DNA of 34,116 nucleotides from Candidatus Poribacteria bacterium (lineage in GTDB: Bacteria > Poribacteria > WGA-4E > WGA-3G): assembly GCA_021295735.1 (NCBI GenBank), contig JAGWBU010000018.1:18184-52299 (forward strand), read 5' to 3'. The notes under the pieces were generated by a model. That model saw nothing but the letters and a program-made list of their open reading frames with translations, had not been told where the DNA came from and ran no database searches. Positions 1,656 to 29,019 of the stretch are shown piece by piece. Position 1 is the first letter of the stretch. The number at the start of each line of letters is the position of its first letter. The position numbers and the translations under genes were made by a program.

Positions 1656-2510
1656 ATGAAAACGTTGTTAGCGTATGTTGAACTTGCCCGTCCACTTAAT
1701 GGAATCATTGCTTTTATCTCAGCGTGGTTGGGTGGTATGTTTGCAAGCGGTAAACCATTGGAACTCTTCACTGATGTAAAACTGATATATGTTTCTATTG
1801 CTGCCCTCCTTTTACTTTCCGCTGGAAATGCAATAAATGATTACTGCGATTATAACATTGATAAGATCAACAGATCTCAACGTCCACTTCCTTCTGGACG
1901 TATGCCGCAGCGAAACGCACTAATTTTTGCACTTATTCTAATAGCAATCGGAATTGGACTCGGCACACTGATTAATATATATGCGGTGTACATAGCGGTT
2001 CTTGTTTCAGCACTGCTTGTGAGTTATGCTATCTGGCTAAAACGCACCCCATTCGTTGGAAATTTAGTTGTTGGCAGTTTGACCAGTTTAACTTTTATTT
2101 CTGGTGGTATAGCGATCAGTTCTGTGCAAGGCACTATTATCCCAGCAATTTTTGCTTTTTTGTTTACAACTGCAAGAGAAATTGTTAAAGACCTTGAGGA
2201 TACAGAAGGGGATCTAAAAGACAATGTGAAGACACTTGCGATTCTCAACCCACGGCTCGCAGTAGCGATAGCATTGAGTTTTATGGTGTCGGTTATAATA
2301 TTTAGTCCAATGCCATATCTATACGGGTGGTATACTTGGCACTATTTAGTTGCTATTGTAATAGGTGTTGACCTTGTGCTAATCGGTTTAGGAATTCAAC
2401 TCTCAAGAGATTTTTCAAAAGCAAGCTGTGCGTTCATCCAACGTTGGATGAAGTGGGACATATTTGTGGGATTAGGTGCAATCTATCTTGGAACTATTTT
2501 TCAAAGGTAA
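1656..2510 (+). CDS. UbiA-family digeranylgeranylglyceryl phosphate synthase (DGGGP synthase-like)
   Basis: Integral membrane prenyltransferase of 284 residues with about eight or nine hydrophobic segments. The first Asp-rich motif is NDYCDYNID (D62, D65, D69), followed by NRSQRPLPSG; the second is KDLEDTEGD (D179, D182, D186). These bind Mg-diphosphate in UbiA enzymes. The N-terminus (YVELARPLNG) and the GNAINDY context look like the archaeal branch, which adds a second geranylgeranyl chain to geranylgeranylglyceryl phosphate, rather than like quinone or haem prenyltransferases. A GGGP synthase gene 1.4 kb downstream, which would make the substrate, supports this. ATG 1656 is preferred; an in-frame TTG lies two codons upstream at 1650. 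Other UbiA substrates cannot be excluded from sequence alone. Confidence 0.8.
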   Translation: MKTLLAYVELARPLNGIIAFISAWLGGMFASGKPLELFTDVKLIYVSIAALLLLSAGNAINDYCDYNIDKINRSQRPLPSGRMPQRNALIFALILIAIGIGLGTLINIYAVYIAVLVSALLVSYAIWLKRTPFVGNLVVGSLTSLTFISGGIAISSVQGTIIPAIFAFLFTTAREIVKDLEDTEGDLKDNVKTLAILNPRLAVAIALSFMVSVIIFSPMPYLYGWYTWHYLVAIVIGVDLVLIGLGIQLSRDFSKASCAFIQRWMKWDIFVGLGAIYLGTIFQR

Positions 2511-2548
2511 CGAAGAGGCGGTAATAGGCCGCCGCCGTAATAACAGCA

Positions 2549-3775
2549 TTGGTAAAATACGATAAGTTAATTGCATTTTTAGAAAAAATAGACCCGAATA
2601 CTGAAGAAGTGCTTCACTTTAAACAAATATACCATTCCTATACTAAGACAGGTGAATGGCAACCTACTTATCAGGTTTTTACTTCCGGGTGGCACAATAT
2701 AGAAGGTGCTATGCTGATGACATCGGAGCGTAAATTAGATGCTGATTATCGGGTCTATGTAACTGCTACAACTGAACGGAGTTTAAGAGAACTACTGCTT
2801 GCTTTTCCAAGGCGAAGTGTAGGAATGTTTCGCATTACAGAAAAATGGATAGAAGAAAGGATGCATGACATATTGGAAGGCAATAGTGTACAAACAGATT
2901 CAGGGACGTATTATCGCGGTGTTAAACGGGGGAGTCATGCGGAAGCAGAACAACGAACCGTCTCAAAAAGAAAGGATGCAATCGCATCTCATATCCGTAA
3001 ATTAGCATCCTTAAAAGGCAAACATGAATATTCACAGTTTATTGTTGAAGGTGAAATGATGGTGGAACGTGCTGTTGCGGATGGGTTACCTGTTGAAACA
3101 ATTCTCTATACCGCTAATTTCGTTTCAACATCGGACGGAGTAGATTTCCTAAAACGTGTAGCTGAGGAGAATCTCTCCTGCTATCTGGTTAACGACGGTG
3201 TAATGGGGTCAGTCACAACAACACGTCCAGTGCCTTCAATAGTCGCTTCGGTGCATCTTAACTATCCACCCTTTTTGGCTGAATCAGGACAACTTAATTT
3301 TCACTTCAGCGCAGATTGCACCTTGCTTATCGTTGAAAATGTTAGTAATCCCGATAATCTTGGGATGACGTTACGTACCGCTGACGCGGCTGGTGTCTCT
3401 GCAGTTTTACTGAGCGGAGAAGGGGCAAGTCCTCTACATAAAAACTGCATTCGTGCCTCGCGCGGTGCTGTTGGTCGCCTACCCATGTTCCACATCCCAA
3501 CGACTAATTCCGCAATTGAACAACTCAAGGAATCAGGGTGGAAAGTTATTGGTGCTACAGCAAGCACAGAATACAATCTTTATACGATAGGATTTATTTC
3601 TCCTACTGCGATTGTTGTCGGCAATGAAAATAGCGGTTTATCAGAGGAAACGCGTGAATGTTGTACAGAATTAGTTCGTATTCCTATGGCAGCTGGACAG
3701 TCCTCCTTAAATGTGGGCGTGGCAGCTGGTATTTTGCTTTATGAATTAGCGCGACAAAAGTTGACACAATCATGA
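2549..3775 (+). CDS. SpoU/TrmH-family RNA 2'-O-ribose methyltransferase with extra N-terminal domain
   Basis: The C-terminal two thirds form a SPOUT (trefoil-knot) methyltransferase. A substrate-binding subdomain spans about residues 140-230 (FIVEGEMMVERAV at 164-176). Motif 1 is NVSNPDNLGMTLRTADA (264-280), motif 2 VVGNENSGLS (356-365) and motif 3 RIPMAAGQSSLNVGVA (377-392). The catalytic Arg in RTADA and the Ser-Leu-Asn of motif 3 are present, so it should methylate rRNA or tRNA ribose. Residues 1-125 are additional to the usual family length of about 250-270; this part (EWQPTYQVFTSGW and a later LRELLLAFPRR) is not recognised, although a degenerate acetyltransferase-like fold is conceivable. 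It lies between the two ether-lipid prenyltransferase genes. The start is TTG 2549. Confidence 0.85.
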   Translation: MVKYDKLIAFLEKIDPNTEEVLHFKQIYHSYTKTGEWQPTYQVFTSGWHNIEGAMLMTSERKLDADYRVYVTATTERSLRELLLAFPRRSVGMFRITEKWIEERMHDILEGNSVQTDSGTYYRGVKRGSHAEAEQRTVSKRKDAIASHIRKLASLKGKHEYSQFIVEGEMMVERAVADGLPVETILYTANFVSTSDGVDFLKRVAEENLSCYLVNDGVMGSVTTTRPVPSIVASVHLNYPPFLAESGQLNFHFSADCTLLIVENVSNPDNLGMTLRTADAAGVSAVLLSGEGASPLHKNCIRASRGAVGRLPMFHIPTTNSAIEQLKESGWKVIGATASTEYNLYTIGFISPTAIVVGNENSGLSEETRECCTELVRIPMAAGQSSLNVGVAAGILLYELARQKLTQS

Positions 3776-3782
3776 CTTCAAT

Positions 3783-3811
3783 TTGACAAATTGATCAGAA
3801 GATGGTAAAAT
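3783..3811 (+). promoter_or_regulatory. Sigma70-type promoter upstream of the GGGP synthase gene
   Basis: TTGACA at 3783-3788, a 17-base spacer, then TAAAAT at 3806-3811. Transcription would start near 3818, about 70 bases before the TTG start of the GGGP synthase gene. This suggests the gene can be expressed separately from the methyltransferase upstream. Confidence 0.6.
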
Positions 3812-3890
3812 TGTTTAGTTTTGTGAAGAGATGTAGACAAGTTACAGGTTTTATAACTTTAGGCATTAAATAACTAAGGAACGTTCGCAT

Positions 3891-4637
3891 TTGGCATCAC
3901 GTTGTATTCTAAAATATTTACACAAGGTCCTCGAAAAACAGAATGCTGGTTATATCGTTCTGATTGATCCCGAAGGGTGTGAGGTAGAAAAATGCGCTAA
4001 ACTTGCTTGTGAAGTTGAACGAGCAGGGGCAGACGCTATTTTGCTTGGTGGTAGTCTGTTGACTACTGACCTGCATCCAATTGCAGCAACCCTAAAATCA
4101 GAAACAGCAATACCTATTATTCTTTTCCCAGGGGATTCGATGCACCTTACACCCCACGCAGATGCTATTCTCTATATGAGCCTAATCAGCGGACGAAATC
4201 CAAACTATCTTATTGGTGAACAAGTCAAAGCAGCACCTTGGATTCAACGGTATGGCTTGCAACCTATCCCCACCGGCTATATGCTTATTGAAGGAGGCAA
4301 TCGAACCGCAGTTGAATTTATGAGCGGCACAGTGCCTATCCCTCGCGATAAACCTGACATAGCGGGACCACACGCATTGGCTGCGCAGTATCTCGGAATG
4401 CGGTTGGTCTATTTAGAAGCTGGAAGTGGTGCTGAATTTCCTGTACCTAACATTATGATTTCAAGTGTAAAAGCTCAAATTGAAATTCCACTGATTGTCG
4501 GCGGTGGCATACGAACCCCGGAAATTGCTGCGGAGAAAGTTAATGCTGGTGCCGATTTTATAGTCACAGGTAATATACTTGAAAAGAGTGGTTCCTTTGA
4601 GCTGATGAAGCAGTTTGCAGATGCTGTTCATGGGTAA
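3891..4637 (+). CDS. Geranylgeranylglyceryl phosphate synthase (GGGP synthase / PcrB family)
   Basis: TIM-barrel prenyltransferase of 248 residues that joins the 3-OH of sn-glycerol-1-phosphate to a polyprenyl diphosphate, the first committed step of archaeal-type ether lipids. Diagnostic segments in order: LIDPEG (D26, metal/phosphate region), LLGGSLLTTD (51-60), IILFPGD (76-82), ISGRNPNYLIGEQ (99-111), VYLEAGSGA (173-181), and the phosphate-binding loops VGGGIRTPE (203-211) and VTGN (225-228). The YLEAGSGA and GRNPNYLIG patterns fit GGGP synthases as found in euryarchaea and FCB-type bacteria better than short Bacillus PcrB, but chain-length preference is inferred. The start is TTG 3891 with AAGGA at 3876-3880. 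A promoter lies at 3783-3811. Confidence 0.88.
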   Translation: MASRCILKYLHKVLEKQNAGYIVLIDPEGCEVEKCAKLACEVERAGADAILLGGSLLTTDLHPIAATLKSETAIPIILFPGDSMHLTPHADAILYMSLISGRNPNYLIGEQVKAAPWIQRYGLQPIPTGYMLIEGGNRTAVEFMSGTVPIPRDKPDIAGPHALAAQYLGMRLVYLEAGSGAEFPVPNIMISSVKAQIEIPLIVGGGIRTPEIAAEKVNAGADFIVTGNILEKSGSFELMKQFADAVHG

Positions 4638-4708: not shown

Positions 4709-5440
4709 ATGTCTAAAAATAATGAGGTAGTAATAGAAATAGAGACAGAGAAAGAAAACAGTAAGAAACCCGATTTTCTCATTGATGAATCTGAAGAAGA
4801 TACGGATGCATCTGCAGAAACGGATGTTGAAGCAGAAGAACGTACATTAGAGACCCTTGAAACTGAACTTGAGGCACTCAAAGAAGACTTTAAAAAACAA
4901 CTTGAAGCAGTTGCCGAATCCGAGCGTGAGCAGTATCAGGAAGAACGCGAACGTTTGTTACGGACCGCTGCTGAAGCCGAAAATATAAAAAAACGGGTGG
5001 AAATAGAAGCACAGAAACAACTCAAGTTTGCTAACAAAAACATTATTGAAGGACTGATTCCGGTATTAGATAGTTTTGAGGCAGCGATTAAAAGCGTTGA
5101 TGGGAAGGTTGAAACGAACGAGACCCCATCAGATTTCCTAAACTTCAGCGAAGGAGTACAGTTAGTTCATAAACAACTCTTAGATGTTCTGAAAATACAC
5201 GGACTTACTCCTATTGAAGCGTCCGGTGGTCCGTTTGATCCGAATCAGCATGAAGCGGTCTTTGCGACGGAATCCGATGAAATTCCAGAGGGAAATGTGA
5301 TAGAAGAATTCAGATGCGGTTACCAATTACACGATCAGATTCTTCGTGCCGCACAGGTCGTGGTTTCTAAAGGAAAATCTGAGCAGCCTCCACCTAAGGA
5401 AAATAAGACAGAAGAAACTGAAAACACCACCGAAAATTAA
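4709..5440 (+). CDS. grpE: Nucleotide exchange factor GrpE
   Basis: Co-chaperone that releases ADP from DnaK. The 243-residue protein has a long acidic, Glu-rich N-terminal tail (about 1-50). A coiled coil rich in Glu/Lys/Arg (about 50-115, with ERLLRTAAEAENIKKR typical of GrpE) follows, then the four-helix dimer segment (IIEGLIPVLDSFEAAI) and the C-terminal beta-wing (GGPFDPNQHEAV and later VIEEFRCGYQLHDQILRAAQVVVSKG). It is longer than E. coli GrpE because of the acidic tail and a charged C-terminal extension. ATG 4709 has GAGAGG 11 bases upstream. dnaJ follows after 33 bases, probably as one operon. No dnaK or hrcA is in the window, and no CIRCE-type inverted repeat is seen upstream. Confidence 0.95.
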   Translation: MSKNNEVVIEIETEKENSKKPDFLIDESEEDTDASAETDVEAEERTLETLETELEALKEDFKKQLEAVAESEREQYQEERERLLRTAAEAENIKKRVEIEAQKQLKFANKNIIEGLIPVLDSFEAAIKSVDGKVETNETPSDFLNFSEGVQLVHKQLLDVLKIHGLTPIEASGGPFDPNQHEAVFATESDEIPEGNVIEEFRCGYQLHDQILRAAQVVVSKGKSEQPPPKENKTEETENTTEN

Positions 5441-5473: not shown

Positions 5474-6589
5474 ATGTTGCAAAAACGGGATTATTATGAA
5501 ATTCTTGATGTAAGCCGAGACGCTGATGAGAACGAAATTAAGAAGGCTTACCGAAAATTAGCGATTAAATATCACCCTGATAAAAATCCTGGTGATGAAG
5601 AAGCTGAAGATAAGTTTAAAGAAGCGACAGAGGCTTATGATGTGTTGCGGACACCTGAAAAAAGGCAGCGTTACGACCAATATGGACATGCGGGACTTGA
5701 AGGCACTTCAAGCGGTTTCGATTTTGGCGTTAACCTTGATGACATTTTCAGTGAAGTTTTCGGAGACGTTTTTGGTGGGTTCGGTAGAACACGGAATAGA
5801 CCTAAACAGGGACGCAGCCTGCAATATAATCTGGAACTTTCACTTGAAGATGCCTTCAACGGTAAAGAGGTAACAATTGAAGTACCGCGTATTGAATCCT
5901 GCCCAGAATGTAATGGAAGTGGTGCAGAAAGAGGTTCAACGGTTGAAACTTGCCCACAGTGTTACGGGCGCGGACAGGTAACCCAATCTCAAGGTTTTTT
6001 CACTATGTCCCGTCCTTGCCCGCGTTGTCGTGGCGAAGGTGAAATAATCCAAAAGCCATGTAGGAATTGTAATGGACAAGGACGCATTAGAGTGGCGCGA
6101 GAAATGAAACTGAAAATTGACAAGGGCGTTGATAGCGGCATTGAATATCGATTGCGAGGAGAAGGTGAAGCCGGAACATTGGGCGGTCCTCCGGGTGATC
6201 TACTCGTCGTCGTTCATATCAAACCACATCAACGGTTTAGTCGTGAAGGTAACGATCTGATTACTTCCACTAAAATTTCATTCGTTGAGGCAGCACTCGG
6301 TAGCACGATCCAAATCGATAGTCTTGCTGGTCCTCAAAAATTGGAGATTCCTGCTGGCACGCAGTACGGTGATAAACTCCGTATACCGGGAAAAGGCATG
6401 CCTAAATACAGAAGTTCAAGTTTCGGGGATCTCATTGTGCAGGTCGGGATTGAAACACCAACAAATCTCAATGAACAACAACACAAACTTTTAGAACAAT
6501 TTGCTGAGTCACAGGGTAAATCAGTTGATTCTCGACACAAAGGATTTTGGGACAAACTTTTTCATCACGACGATGAAGACGACGCGTAA
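5474..6589 (+). CDS. dnaJ: Chaperone protein DnaJ
   Basis: Hsp40 co-chaperone of 371 residues. The J domain covers residues 5-70 with the catalytic HPD at 34-36. A short Gly/Phe region follows (GFDFG and GGFGRTRN, about 80-107). The zinc-binding domain has four CxxCxGxG repeats: CPECNGSG (143), CPQCYGRG (160), CPRCRGEG (182) and CRNCNGQG (196). The substrate-binding C-terminal domain runs to about residue 345 (RLRGEGEAG and later RIPGKGMP). It is therefore a complete type I DnaJ. ATG 5474 has AGGTAGGA just upstream, and grpE lies 33 bases before it. prmA follows after a 317-base gap filled with repeats, so a separate transcript for prmA is likely. Confidence 0.97.
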
Positions 6590-6906: not shown

Positions 6907-7821
6907 ATGAATTGGGCGCAGATTACCGTAACGGCTTCTCATGATGCATCTGAAGCCGTTGCAAATTACCTATTTGAAATGGACGCTTTCGGGATTGAAA
7001 TGAAAGATGCTACCGATTCAACAACTTCTCTCATCGCATATTATCCAATGGATGACCGTTTAAACACAAGAGTTGGGAAACTAAGAAATTTTCTCTCTAA
7101 ACTTCCAACATGGGGACTCCCATCTCATCCAGCAAAAATTGATTTAAAACGTGTTGAATCTAAAGATTGGACAGAAGCGTGGAAGTCATCTTTCGCGCCG
7201 CAGCGGATAGGGAAACGTCTACTTATCGCGCCAACATGGTCCGATATTGCCCCTGATGAGACAGAGATTTTAATCCGCCTTGATCCAGGGATGGCATTTG
7301 GCACCGGTTACCATCCAACTACACGTTTATCATTAGAATTGTTGGAGCAAACGATTGAGCCAGATCAAAACGTTGCCGATATCGGAACGGGTTCCGGTAT
7401 ACTTGCAATTGCTGCGGTAAAATTAGGTGCTAAATATGTTGATGCTGTTGAGCTTGACCCCACAGCAATACCGGTGGCAGAAACAAACTTTGCAATTAAT
7501 GATGCTACAGAAAAAATCAGTTTGTATCAAGGTGATGGAATTAAGACTGTCCAAGGTAAATATCATCTAATAGTTGGAAATATCCTAACAAAGGTGATTC
7601 TTCCTATCATTCCACATTGTCCATCGCGATTGCATCTTGAAGGAAACGTTATTTTTTCTGGTATTTTGGAATCAGAATTGAAGCAAGTTCAGGAGGTATT
7701 GTCAGAAAACGGGTTGCGATGTATTGATGTAACGCACGAAGCAGAAGAGGGAGTAATGTGGGTAGCGCTTAGGGCGCAGCTTGCAAGCCCATATTGCGAA
7801 TCAGCGCGCTTCCTTGGCTAA
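6907..7821 (+). CDS. prmA: Ribosomal protein L11 methyltransferase PrmA
   Basis: SAM-dependent enzyme that trimethylates ribosomal protein L11. The 304 residues comprise an N-terminal substrate-recognition domain (about 1-90, WAQITVTA then SKDWTEAWK) and a Rossmann methyltransferase domain. The signature DPGMAFGTGYHPTTR spans 126-140, SAM motif I ADIGTGSGILAIAA 157-170, and the acidic VELDP is at 181-185; GNIL near 225 is the family's NxL motif. Co-location with grpE-dnaJ matches the dnaJ-prmA arrangement of many bacteria. The last 16 or so codons (after WVALRAQ) go beyond the usual end, contain the repeat GCAGCTTGCAAGC (7776-7788), and overlap the convergent cytochrome gene by 21 bases. Confidence 0.93.
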   Translation: MNWAQITVTASHDASEAVANYLFEMDAFGIEMKDATDSTTSLIAYYPMDDRLNTRVGKLRNFLSKLPTWGLPSHPAKIDLKRVESKDWTEAWKSSFAPQRIGKRLLIAPTWSDIAPDETEILIRLDPGMAFGTGYHPTTRLSLELLEQTIEPDQNVADIGTGSGILAIAAVKLGAKYVDAVELDPTAIPVAETNFAINDATEKISLYQGDGIKTVQGKYHLIVGNILTKVILPIIPHCPSRLHLEGNVIFSGILESELKQVQEVLSENGLRCIDVTHEAEEGVMWVALRAQLASPYCESARFLG

Positions 7822-8058
7822 TCCGTGACAGAGAACGCATCTGCCAAGATTGAGGTGTGGCATTGTCGGTGATTTTTCGTCACCTATTAGGTGACATTTT
7901 AGACATGCAGCCGCTTCTTCTGATTTTCGATGATCCTCAATGTTTGAACGCGCTGGTGCCGCGTTGAAAAAGAGAATTACCATTACGATAGCAAAAATAA
8001 AACCTATAACGAAAACAATATAAAATAGCACCTTTGGATTGGCTTGTTCGGTTGGCAT
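7801..8058 (-). CDS. Small membrane-anchored diheme c-type cytochrome
   Basis: An 85-residue protein with a short cytoplasmic N-terminus, one hydrophobic anchor (about 9-32) and a periplasmic tail. The tail carries two haem-c motifs, CLKCH (C52-H56) and CVLCH (C74-H78), plus H43 and H68 as possible axial ligands. The layout recalls tiny membrane-tethered electron-transfer subunits, but I cannot assign it to a named family or partner enzyme. Its 3' end overlaps the end of prmA by 21 bases tail-to-tail. No respiratory genes are adjacent. ATG 8058 has no clear Shine-Dalgarno sequence. Confidence 0.75.
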   Translation of the reverse strand: MPTEQANPKVLFYIVFVIGFIFAIVMVILFFNAAPARSNIEDHRKSEEAAACLKCHLIGDEKSPTMPHLNLGRCVLCHGLAKEAR

Positions 8059-9117: not shown

Positions 9118-9585
9118 ATGAAAAACTGGAAAGTTGAAGTTTTCTATAAGCCTGAAGTGCCTGATACTATTGGACAAGGCATTCTTGAAGATATTTCTGA
9201 CCTCGGCATCAGTGGGGTTGAATCTGTCAGGACTGCCACAGTTTATTGGATTGAAGGCAACCTTGACCCACAAACTATTGACCGAATTGGCACGGAACTC
9301 CTTGCCGATCCAATTACGCAAGTCTTCACCTTTGACTCTGATAACGAAAACACGAGAGATTGGACGGTTGAAGTGCAATTCAAAGCTGGTGTTACTGACG
9401 CAGTCGGAGACAGTACAGTCAAAGGCATCAAAGACCTTGGTGTTGCTGGTGTCAACACTGTTCGCACAGGACAAAAGTATTGGCTCAGCGGCACCTTGGA
9501 TGCAGAAATAATGCGGACTATTGCCCAACGTCTTCTGATGAATGATGTTATCCAAACTTTCTCTTACCAGGTACCGCAAGGGTAA
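9118..9585 (+). CDS. Tandem PurS-domain protein (FGAM synthase PurS-like)
   Basis: 155 residues made of two homologous halves of about 75 residues. The first opens with WKVEVFYKPEVPDTIGQGI and the second with WTVEVQFKAGVTDAVGDST. Each continues with an (I/L)GxxGVxxVRT segment and ends in a beta strand. This is the PurS pattern (beta strand, then P/D-x-x-G helix, LG..V..VR strand). PurS dimers bridge PurL and PurQ in formylglycinamidine ribonucleotide synthase of purine synthesis. The usual protein is about 80 residues, so this is a covalent pseudo-dimer. No purL or purQ is nearby, which is unusual. It could serve the enzyme from a distance or be a diverged paralogue. ATG 9118 is preferred because both repeats then start equivalently. 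Confidence 0.8.
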   Translation: MKNWKVEVFYKPEVPDTIGQGILEDISDLGISGVESVRTATVYWIEGNLDPQTIDRIGTELLADPITQVFTFDSDNENTRDWTVEVQFKAGVTDAVGDSTVKGIKDLGVAGVNTVRTGQKYWLSGTLDAEIMRTIAQRLLMNDVIQTFSYQVPQG

Positions 9586-28197: not shown

Positions 28198-29019
28198 ATG
28201 AATGGAACAAGAGCCGTGGAAAAACTTGGCATTATCGCAGGAGCAGGTGAACTTCCAATCCTTGTTGCGAAAAACGCGGCAGCACAAGGACGAAAACCGA
28301 TAATCATACAGATCACAAAAACGGATGAACAACGTTTTACTGAAATACAGTGTGAAGTCCATTCTTACGGTGTAGGACAGATCCAGAAAATAACACAGAA
28401 ACTTCTCGATTTAAACATAAAAGAACTCGTCGTAATTGGAAAAATTGAGCCAAGTATCTTGTTACGTCCCTTCCAAGTTGATGCAACCGCACTCAAGATT
28501 TTGGCACAGAATCGTAGCCAAAGCCCCACCTCACTCGTTTCAGCAGTCCTTGAACACTTTCAAAACGCGGGACTCTCTATCCTAAATCAAGATCATTTTC
28601 TATTTGATTTATTACCTGAACCCGGTGTACTCACAAAACGCAAACCGAATGATGCACAGTGGGACGATATAAAAATGGGCATAGCGATAGCACGACAGAT
28701 AGCGAACCTTGATATTGGACAAACTGTTATCATCAAAAATCAGATTATTCTTGCGATTGAGGCTATTGAAGGAACAGATGCCACAATTTATAGAGGTGGA
28801 GACTTAGGTGGGAAAGGCGTTGTGGTTGCCAAAGCCGCATCTGAAAACCACGATTTTCGTATTGATGTCCCAACAGTAGGTATGCAAACACTTCAGACGC
28901 TACATGCTGTCAAAGGAAGCGTTTTGGCAGTTGAAGCAAGACGAACCTTTGTTATGGAGCCAGAGATCCTATTTGAACAGGCTGACCGTTGGAAGATTTC
29001 GATTGTTGCCGTGGAATAA
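28198..29019 (+). CDS. lpxI: UDP-2,3-diacylglucosamine diphosphatase LpxI-like
   Basis: Hydrolyses UDP-2,3-diacylglucosamine to lipid X and UMP, the fourth step of lipid A synthesis, in bacteria that lack LpxH. 273 residues: the N-terminal domain begins LGIIAGAGELPILVAKNA; the C-terminal catalytic domain has AIEAIEGTDATIYRGGDLGG, VVAKAASENHDFRIDVPTVG and MQTLQTL. This matches the LpxI (DUF1009) signature, with NHDFRID for the more usual QDxRFD. The presence of lipid A machinery implies an outer membrane. ATG 28198 is taken; a GTG at 28216 just before EKLGIIAG would fit the family's usual start. Confidence 0.88.
   Translation: MNGTRAVEKLGIIAGAGELPILVAKNAAAQGRKPIIIQITKTDEQRFTEIQCEVHSYGVGQIQKITQKLLDLNIKELVVIGKIEPSILLRPFQVDATALKILAQNRSQSPTSLVSAVLEHFQNAGLSILNQDHFLFDLLPEPGVLTKRKPNDAQWDDIKMGIAIARQIANLDIGQTVIIKNQIILAIEAIEGTDATIYRGGDLGGKGVVVAKAASENHDFRIDVPTVGMQTLQTLHAVKGSVLAVEARRTFVMEPEILFEQADRWKISIVAVE

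Follow-up and report, generated by a model that had tools for sequence, protein, structure and literature searches.

Can a bacterium of the phylum Poribacteria build archaeal-type ether lipids? This question is raised by a pair of genes in a stretch of 34,116 nucleotides (hereafter the window) of Candidatus Poribacteria bacterium, positions 18184-52299 of contig JAGWBU010000018.1 (C52 in our numbering). The assembly comprises 5.07 Mb in 230 contigs and is 93.5% complete and 5.55% contaminated. The pair consists of a geranylgeranylglyceryl phosphate (GGGP) synthase (GGGPS) and a UbiA-superfamily prenyltransferase resembling digeranylgeranylglyceryl phosphate (DGGGP) synthase (DGGGPS), and both are long intact open reading frames (ORFs) with one gene between them, at the positions given by the original prediction, which had been made from the nucleotide sequence alone. 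From sequence comparisons with other poribacterial genomes, we consider it likely that the pair represents both ether-bond steps of an archaeal-type lipid pathway, with a selenocysteine (Sec)-containing geranylgeranyl reductase (GGR) in the ancestry of the window's order and loss or damage of this reductase in most genomes of the window's family.

Judged by its sequence, the first enzyme is a GGGPS of the archaeal/FCB type, an identity far beyond chance. The protein of 248 amino acids scored 221.6 bits on the NCBIfam profile TIGR01769 (curated cut-off 161.55) and 179.2 bits on TIGR01768 (cut-off 113.25), and the solved structures most similar to it are those of GGGP synthases (4mm1, E 7.4e-55). 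We rejected the alternative that it is a heptaprenylglyceryl phosphate synthase (HepG) as in Bacillus. The Pfam family PcrB is common to both, but the window protein reached 27.2 bits on the HepG model NF003197 (cut-off 260) compared to 221.6 bits on TIGR01769. In a midpoint-rooted tree of 44 sequences, none of them from Bacillus, it was placed with Poribacteria inside a bacterial clade (support 99/91) that also holds Cloacimonadota, Latescibacterota, Zixibacteria, Ignavibacteria-type sequences, Neomarinimicrobiota, and one Gemmatimonadetes metagenome-assembled genome (MAG), with Methanosarcinaceae adjacent. The Poribacteria are not one group in this tree, since genomes G003 and G004 stand apart from the rest.

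For the second enzyme, the predicted proximity to DGGGP synthases rather than to menaquinone or haem prenyltransferases was likewise borne out. The protein (286 amino acids counted from the TTG at 1650; Pfam UbiA, 144 bits) had as its top NCBIfam model NF009523 (prenyltransferase, PRK12884) with 210.8 bits, below the cut-off of 269, followed by the DGGGP synthase models NF009521 (208.9 bits, cut-off 296) and NF009522 (173.9 bits, cut-off 353), neither of which was reached, and by NF009513 (prenyltransferase) with 108.7 bits. Scores were lower for EboC (84.7), haem O synthase (63.6), 4-hydroxybenzoate octaprenyltransferase (54.3), and menaquinone MqnP (41.3 bits); the comparison covers the best 25 of 28 models listed, with no MenA model among them. 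Its alignment with the solved DGGGP synthase 6m31 of Methanocaldococcus jannaschii spans almost the whole protein (E 3.9e-37, residues 3-282) and includes both Asp-rich motifs. Because its scores fall short of the curated DGGGPS cut-offs, we use only the label DGGGPS-like, an assignment based on the profiles and the PDB match. Family membership suggests that GGGPS attaches the first chain, geranylgeranyl, to glycerol phosphate and that the second is added by the UbiA protein.

The original prediction had also suggested that the two genes, with an RNA methyltransferase gene between them, might form a conserved locus, and this proved to be so across the phylum. GGGPS scored above the cut-off in 72 of 84 poribacterial genomes, and in 59 of these 72 it lies on the same contig and strand as UbiA. 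This count was derived from 86 loci, with G011, which was below the bit threshold, added by hand (58 + 1 = 59). The methyltransferase of the window matches the SpoU family with 127.5 bits, and a SpoU gene separates UbiA from GGGPS in 50 of the 59 co-localized loci, alone in 47 and together with a GGR gene in three, while GGR alone occupies this position in nine. Among the remaining 13 GGGPS genomes, the genes are at contig edges in G002, G017, and G067, both were not seen on one contig in G003, G004, G007, G008, G009, G030, G038, G039, and G042, and they are genuinely apart in G045, which is a single contig. The lipid locus of G027 (L256) carries SpoU twice in tandem, together with a UbiA fragment. 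The methyltransferase is a frequent neighbour of the two enzymes; their functional partner, seen in relatives, is likely a ferredoxin-GGR pair that is absent from the window. The ancestral poribacterial locus probably comprised UbiA, ferredoxin, GGR, and GGGPS, with SpoU and GrpE-DnaJ as frequent neighbours.

In bacteria, co-localization of GGGPS and UbiA was thought to be apparently restricted to Cloacimonetes according to Villanueva et al. (PMC7852524), the main text of which does not contain the word Poribacteria, and the open-licence literature searched contained no relevant report that combines Poribacteria with geranylgeranyl. The two systems are alike in that a two-gene set for both ether bonds is found in a bacterium, and in that the four MAGs of that paper lack both glycerol-1-phosphate (G1P) dehydrogenase (G1PDH) and CarS. 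They differ in phylum and in the SpoU and GrpE-DnaJ neighbours; moreover, the locus of some Poribacteria includes ferredoxin and GGR, the latter being predicted to be a selenoprotein in one order.

In order to describe this reductase in the relatives, up to 24 candidates per genome were scored with TIGR02032 (cut-off 158.8 bits). The cut-off was reached in at least 23 of the 84 genomes, the window genome not being among them, and GGR fragments were found in further genomes (for example G017 and G058). Within the window's family, at least eight of 58 genomes hold any trace of GGR. Of the 26 GGR-like loci first listed, L124 and L125 were excluded as other flavoenzymes. Twelve of the 59 co-localized loci, all of them outside the window's family, have the GGR gene between UbiA and GGGPS, where it usually follows a ferredoxin-like ORF. 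A small ORF in which two Cys motifs resemble those of ferredoxins precedes GGR at 19 of 24 loci, either overlapping the GGR gene or ending at most 120 nucleotides upstream of it (for example before position 4042 of L110). The encoded protein is likely the electron donor with which GGR would saturate the chains; both ferredoxin and GGR are needed for full reduction in Methanosarcina acetivorans, according to the title of a report. The best model of the GGR in relatives is digeranylgeranylglycerophospholipid reductase. Similarity to the Thermoplasma-type reductase (3oz2, NF041160) is nearly full-length, with 371 bits for the poribacterial GGR profile, and the PVRC motif is shared. Differences are that the Thermoplasma-type enzyme has Cys where 16 poribacterial genomes have a TGA codon, and that the one Sec form scanned reached 291 bits on NF041160, below the cut-off of 780.

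Several observations count against a full pathway of this kind. Profile searches of the window genome revealed no G1PDH, no GGR (TIGR02032), and no match to CarS, the UbiA protein stays below both DGGGPS cut-offs, and no ferredoxin-like ORF was found at five of the 24 GGR loci (G004, G005, G038, G039, and G042). Four weak matches in the window genome (36-55 bits) were obtained with PF13685, to which G1PDH belongs. All were rejected as G1PDH: one is AroB (396.5 bits on the AroB model), and the other three are Fe-alcohol dehydrogenases with ErcA or lactaldehyde-reductase-type models as their nearest matches. The best GGR candidate (128 bits) was rejected as halogenase-like. Two polyprenyl synthases are encoded, the DDxxD context of which did not point to a particular chain length. 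Since G1PDH, GGR, and CarS were not found, part of the earlier case fails in this genome. The lack of G1PDH, on which the original prediction had made its reading depend, weakens the pair reading rather than refuting it, because the four Cloacimonetes MAGs lacked it too and their enzymes worked: GGGPS and DGGGPS from Cloacimonetes are reported to have made archaeal-type lipid in Escherichia coli engineered for geranylgeranyl diphosphate and G1P (PMC7852524). G1PDH orthologues in Cloacimonetes are listed by a second paper (PMC6431249). As GGR is absent or damaged in most of the window's family, the window organism would make an unsaturated ether lipid or use another reductase.

With respect to glycerol phosphate, the organism may use glycerol-3-phosphate (G3P) or another route to G1P. 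Closer relatives of G1PDH were present in two other poribacterial genomes (118 and 113 bits on PF13685), and the one that was scanned scored 204 bits on the G1PDH model NF002022 (cut-off 413). In addition, L171, L173, and L175 from other Poribacteria encode a divergent G1PDH-related family of ~330-350 amino acids with NF002022 as the best model (114-137 bits, same cut-off). This family is a candidate G1P source in other Poribacteria. Homologues of tetraether synthase (Tes) have been reported in 10 of 29 Black Sea Poribacteria MAGs (PMC11868695).

That the pathway works but builds on G3P instead of G1P is possible, though somewhat doubtful, and would be compatible with our preferred explanation. 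The missing G1PDH of the window genome speaks for it, as do some G3P activity reported for Cloacimonetes GGGPS (PMC7852524) and reports that PlsY/PlsC accept both glycerol-phosphate forms. On the other hand, the archaeal enzymes are described as strongly G1P-selective even in E. coli without araM (PMC7852524), and G1PDH-like proteins do occur in other Poribacteria (NF002022, 114-204 bits in four scanned, below the cut-off of 413). We regard as unlikely that no membrane phospholipid is formed at all, either because the UbiA protein prenylates another acceptor or because GGGPS alone makes a minor glycerol ether like Bacillus PcrB/HepG. The UbiA scores short of the DGGGPS cut-offs, the variable acceptors of UbiA proteins (Ubi-297 is reported to farnesylate quinolines), the failure to find G1PDH and CarS in the window genome, and the 13 of 72 GGGPS genomes in which the two genes were not seen together, including G045 where they are truly apart, would all fit such a role. 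However, the UbiA protein matches DGGGPS-type models and the solved DGGGPS far better than any others, and its gene is tightly paired with that of GGGPS and also, in relatives, with that of a GGR of the digeranylgeranylglycerophospholipid reductase type. It is highly improbable that the enzymes run in reverse and degrade environmental archaeal ether lipids, as was suggested for FCB bacteria without G1PDH (PMC6431249): the lack of G1PDH in the window genome would agree with this, but the GGR-ferredoxin pair in the locus of relatives represents a biosynthetic saturating step. We favour synthesis of an archaeal-type lipid.

The GGR of the relatives carries a second feature. In 16 genomes, codon 46 of the gene (47 in G062) is an in-frame TGA in the context EKRQEIGxPVR-TGA-AE, and eight other poribacterial GGRs have Cys in this column. 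All 16 TGA genomes are inside the window's order, and all eight Cys genomes are outside it. Among the best 80 of 425 named relatives, seven have TGA, all of them Poribacteria, and 73 have Cys (71 non-poribacterial and two poribacterial); the poribacterial loci in this set overlap with the 84 genomes. The column aligns with the Cys of PDB entry 3oz2 and, in 3atq, with the one Cys that occurs among the first 100 aligned residues; we take the latter as Cys47 of Sulfolobus acidocaldarius, the deposited chain being numbered one higher. Cys47 is described as conserved throughout the archaeal GGRs and as essential in the S. acidocaldarius enzyme, and the role of the residue is called speculative there (PMC10821996). 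The GGR tree includes neither the damaged or cut L106, L119, and L123 nor the fragments L121 and L122; in it, all 13 intact TGA forms group in a single clade (100/99) that arises from within the Cys forms. These data suggest that the catalytic Cys of GGR was replaced once by Sec in the ancestry of the window's order. A sequencing error was rejected as the source of the TGA because it recurs in several differently named MAGs and on the single-contig 5.16 Mb chromosome OY282444.1.

Additional evidence indicates that the TGA is decoded. The ORF is full-length in 13 of the 16 genes, and the ratio of non-synonymous to synonymous substitutions (dN/dS) after the TGA is 0.019-0.048 in six close pairs, indicating strong purifying selection; these six were the unsaturated ones among 78 gene pairs, and three of them share G038, G039, and G042. 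A hairpin starts 13 nucleotides after the TGA. In the 15 TGA genes analyzed (14 distinct; L123 was too short and excluded), 96.9% of cells were paired compared to at most 62.2% in slid versions, and 28.6% were paired in the eight Cys genes. The covariation score of 0.468 in the TGA genes was reached by none of 500 shuffles. Within the genes, at least six of the seven pairs were formed at 13 of 13 TGAs vs 55 of 4902 other codons, although this control somewhat favours the TGA sites, from which the hairpin was defined. SelB exceeded its cut-off in 75 of the 84 genomes, including that of the window, and in 14 of the 16 TGA genomes; tRNA-Sec was found in 74 and 15, respectively, with only 48-55 bits in G003, G004, and G005. 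SelB was not above the cut-off in G004, which has the Cys form. In G023, assembled as one contig, selA (601 bits, cut-off 267.9) adjoins selB, this being the sole locus scanned for SelA. One study reports SelA and SelB from most of its sponge symbiont bins (PMC5649159).

Not all results favour decoding as Sec. Damage or truncation affects three of the 16 TGA genes, through a frameshift in G034, an additional TAG in G068, and a contig end in G058. At least as many pairs with two-sided changes (three) occurred in 276 of 500 shuffles, and at least as many further pair types (nine) in 125 of 500, so the two hairpin measures least misled by relatedness do not discriminate. Against a synonymous-codon null, hairpin energy had p <0.05 in 13 of 15 TGA genes but also in two of eight Cys genes. 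Among the TGA genomes, G024 (80% complete) has neither selB nor tRNA-Sec above the cut-off, and in G058 (81% complete) selB is not above it. The tRNA-Sec of the window genome (L166, 2042-2107, C204, beside selB) scored 38.2 bits, and its 5' acceptor strand is unlike that of sister species; this tRNA is perhaps disrupted or wrongly assembled, and its genome is one of those in which we found no GGR. Upstream of selB, where selA is located in G023, the window genome has two genes for signal peptidase I (L166, 4134-6112, minus strand).

The relatives combine the features of a bacterial selenoprotein, namely a TGA at a conserved redox Cys, a hairpin resembling a selenocysteine insertion sequence, and SelB with tRNA-Sec. 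The TGA-bearing GGR is thus very probably a selenocysteine GGR, in which Sec would be encoded by UGA and read via the downstream hairpin, SelB, and tRNA-Sec. We give almost no credence to the TGA being a true stop or another residue in a truncated gene or pseudogene, since, against the three visibly damaged copies of 16, there stand 13 full-length ORFs under strong purifying selection after the TGA, Cys in this column in eight poribacterial and 71 other GGRs of the best 80 of 425 relatives, a rightly placed hairpin together with the Sec machinery, and the genes of G015 and G016, which end in a TGA stop and then form merely four and five of the seven pairs.

A Sec-containing GGR would resemble known FAD-dependent selenoproteins, of the CoA-disulfide reductase type and type III sulfide quinone reductase, in being a Sec flavoenzyme; those described belong to other families with the motifs UGxP and HxxU (PMC13188914). 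The available text of this prokaryotic selenoproteome review (2026) contains neither 'geranylgeranyl' nor 'TIGR02032', and geranylgeranyl is likewise absent from the accessible part of a 2025 selenoprotein prediction paper. The open-licence literature searched yielded no relevant report of GGR as a selenoprotein or selenocysteine enzyme, although absence there is not proof, and no report of Poribacteria with a selenoprotein.

The genes of the window discussed here and their neighbours are listed in Table 1.

Table 1. Genes at the lipid locus of the window (positions in the window).
Feature	Position	Strand	Remarks
UbiA-superfamily prenyltransferase, DGGGP-synthase-like	1656..2510	+	ORF open from TTG 1650, likely start ATG 1656; motifs NDYCDYNID and KDLEDTEGD
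SpoU/RlmB-type RNA 2'-O-methyltransferase	2549..3775	+	profile match; conserved neighbour, not itself a lipid enzyme
GGGP synthase (GGGPS), PcrB superfamily, archaeal/FCB type	3891..4637	+	profiles, solved relatives, tree
GrpE	4709..5440	+	recurrent neighbour downstream of the lipid locus
DnaJ	5474..6589	+	recurrent neighbour downstream of the lipid locus

Elsewhere in the window, a Schlafen/AlbA_2-type gene (128-732) seems to be divided between overlapping ORFs in two frames (128-430 and 298-732), which may reflect a frameshift. An ORF of 85 amino acids (7801-8058, minus strand) shows, by eye, a membrane-like stretch and two CxxCH motifs and possibly encodes a small c-type cytochrome, and two PurS-like stretches are joined in one protein at 9118-9582. 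The lipid A enzyme LpxI is encoded at 28198-29016; because of this gene, the organism probably has an ordinary outer membrane too.

Overall, on the basis of these comparisons, it is likely that a Sec-dependent, ferredoxin-fed GGR that saturates archaeal-type ether lipids evolved in Poribacteria, and that the window's family is shedding this reductase while keeping both ether-forming enzymes. Standard gene callers usually end an ORF at TGA, and the GGR may therefore be missed in annotations. SELENOI is a vertebrate selenoprotein in lipid synthesis, so we make no claim of a first for lipid synthesis at large. If our reading is true, it would add a new selenoprotein family and give an archaeal-type lipid pathway a selenium-dependent step; the literature searched contained no report of this pathway in Poribacteria. 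It provides a concrete case of a flavoenzyme, acting in the hydrogenation of isolated double bonds, whose essential cysteine seems to have given way to selenium, and the role of this residue is therefore testable by Sec/Cys exchange. The co-localized archaeal lipid gene pair is extended from Cloacimonetes to another bacterial phylum, and its presence in Poribacteria is relevant to the question of whether mixed membranes occur among bacteria in nature.

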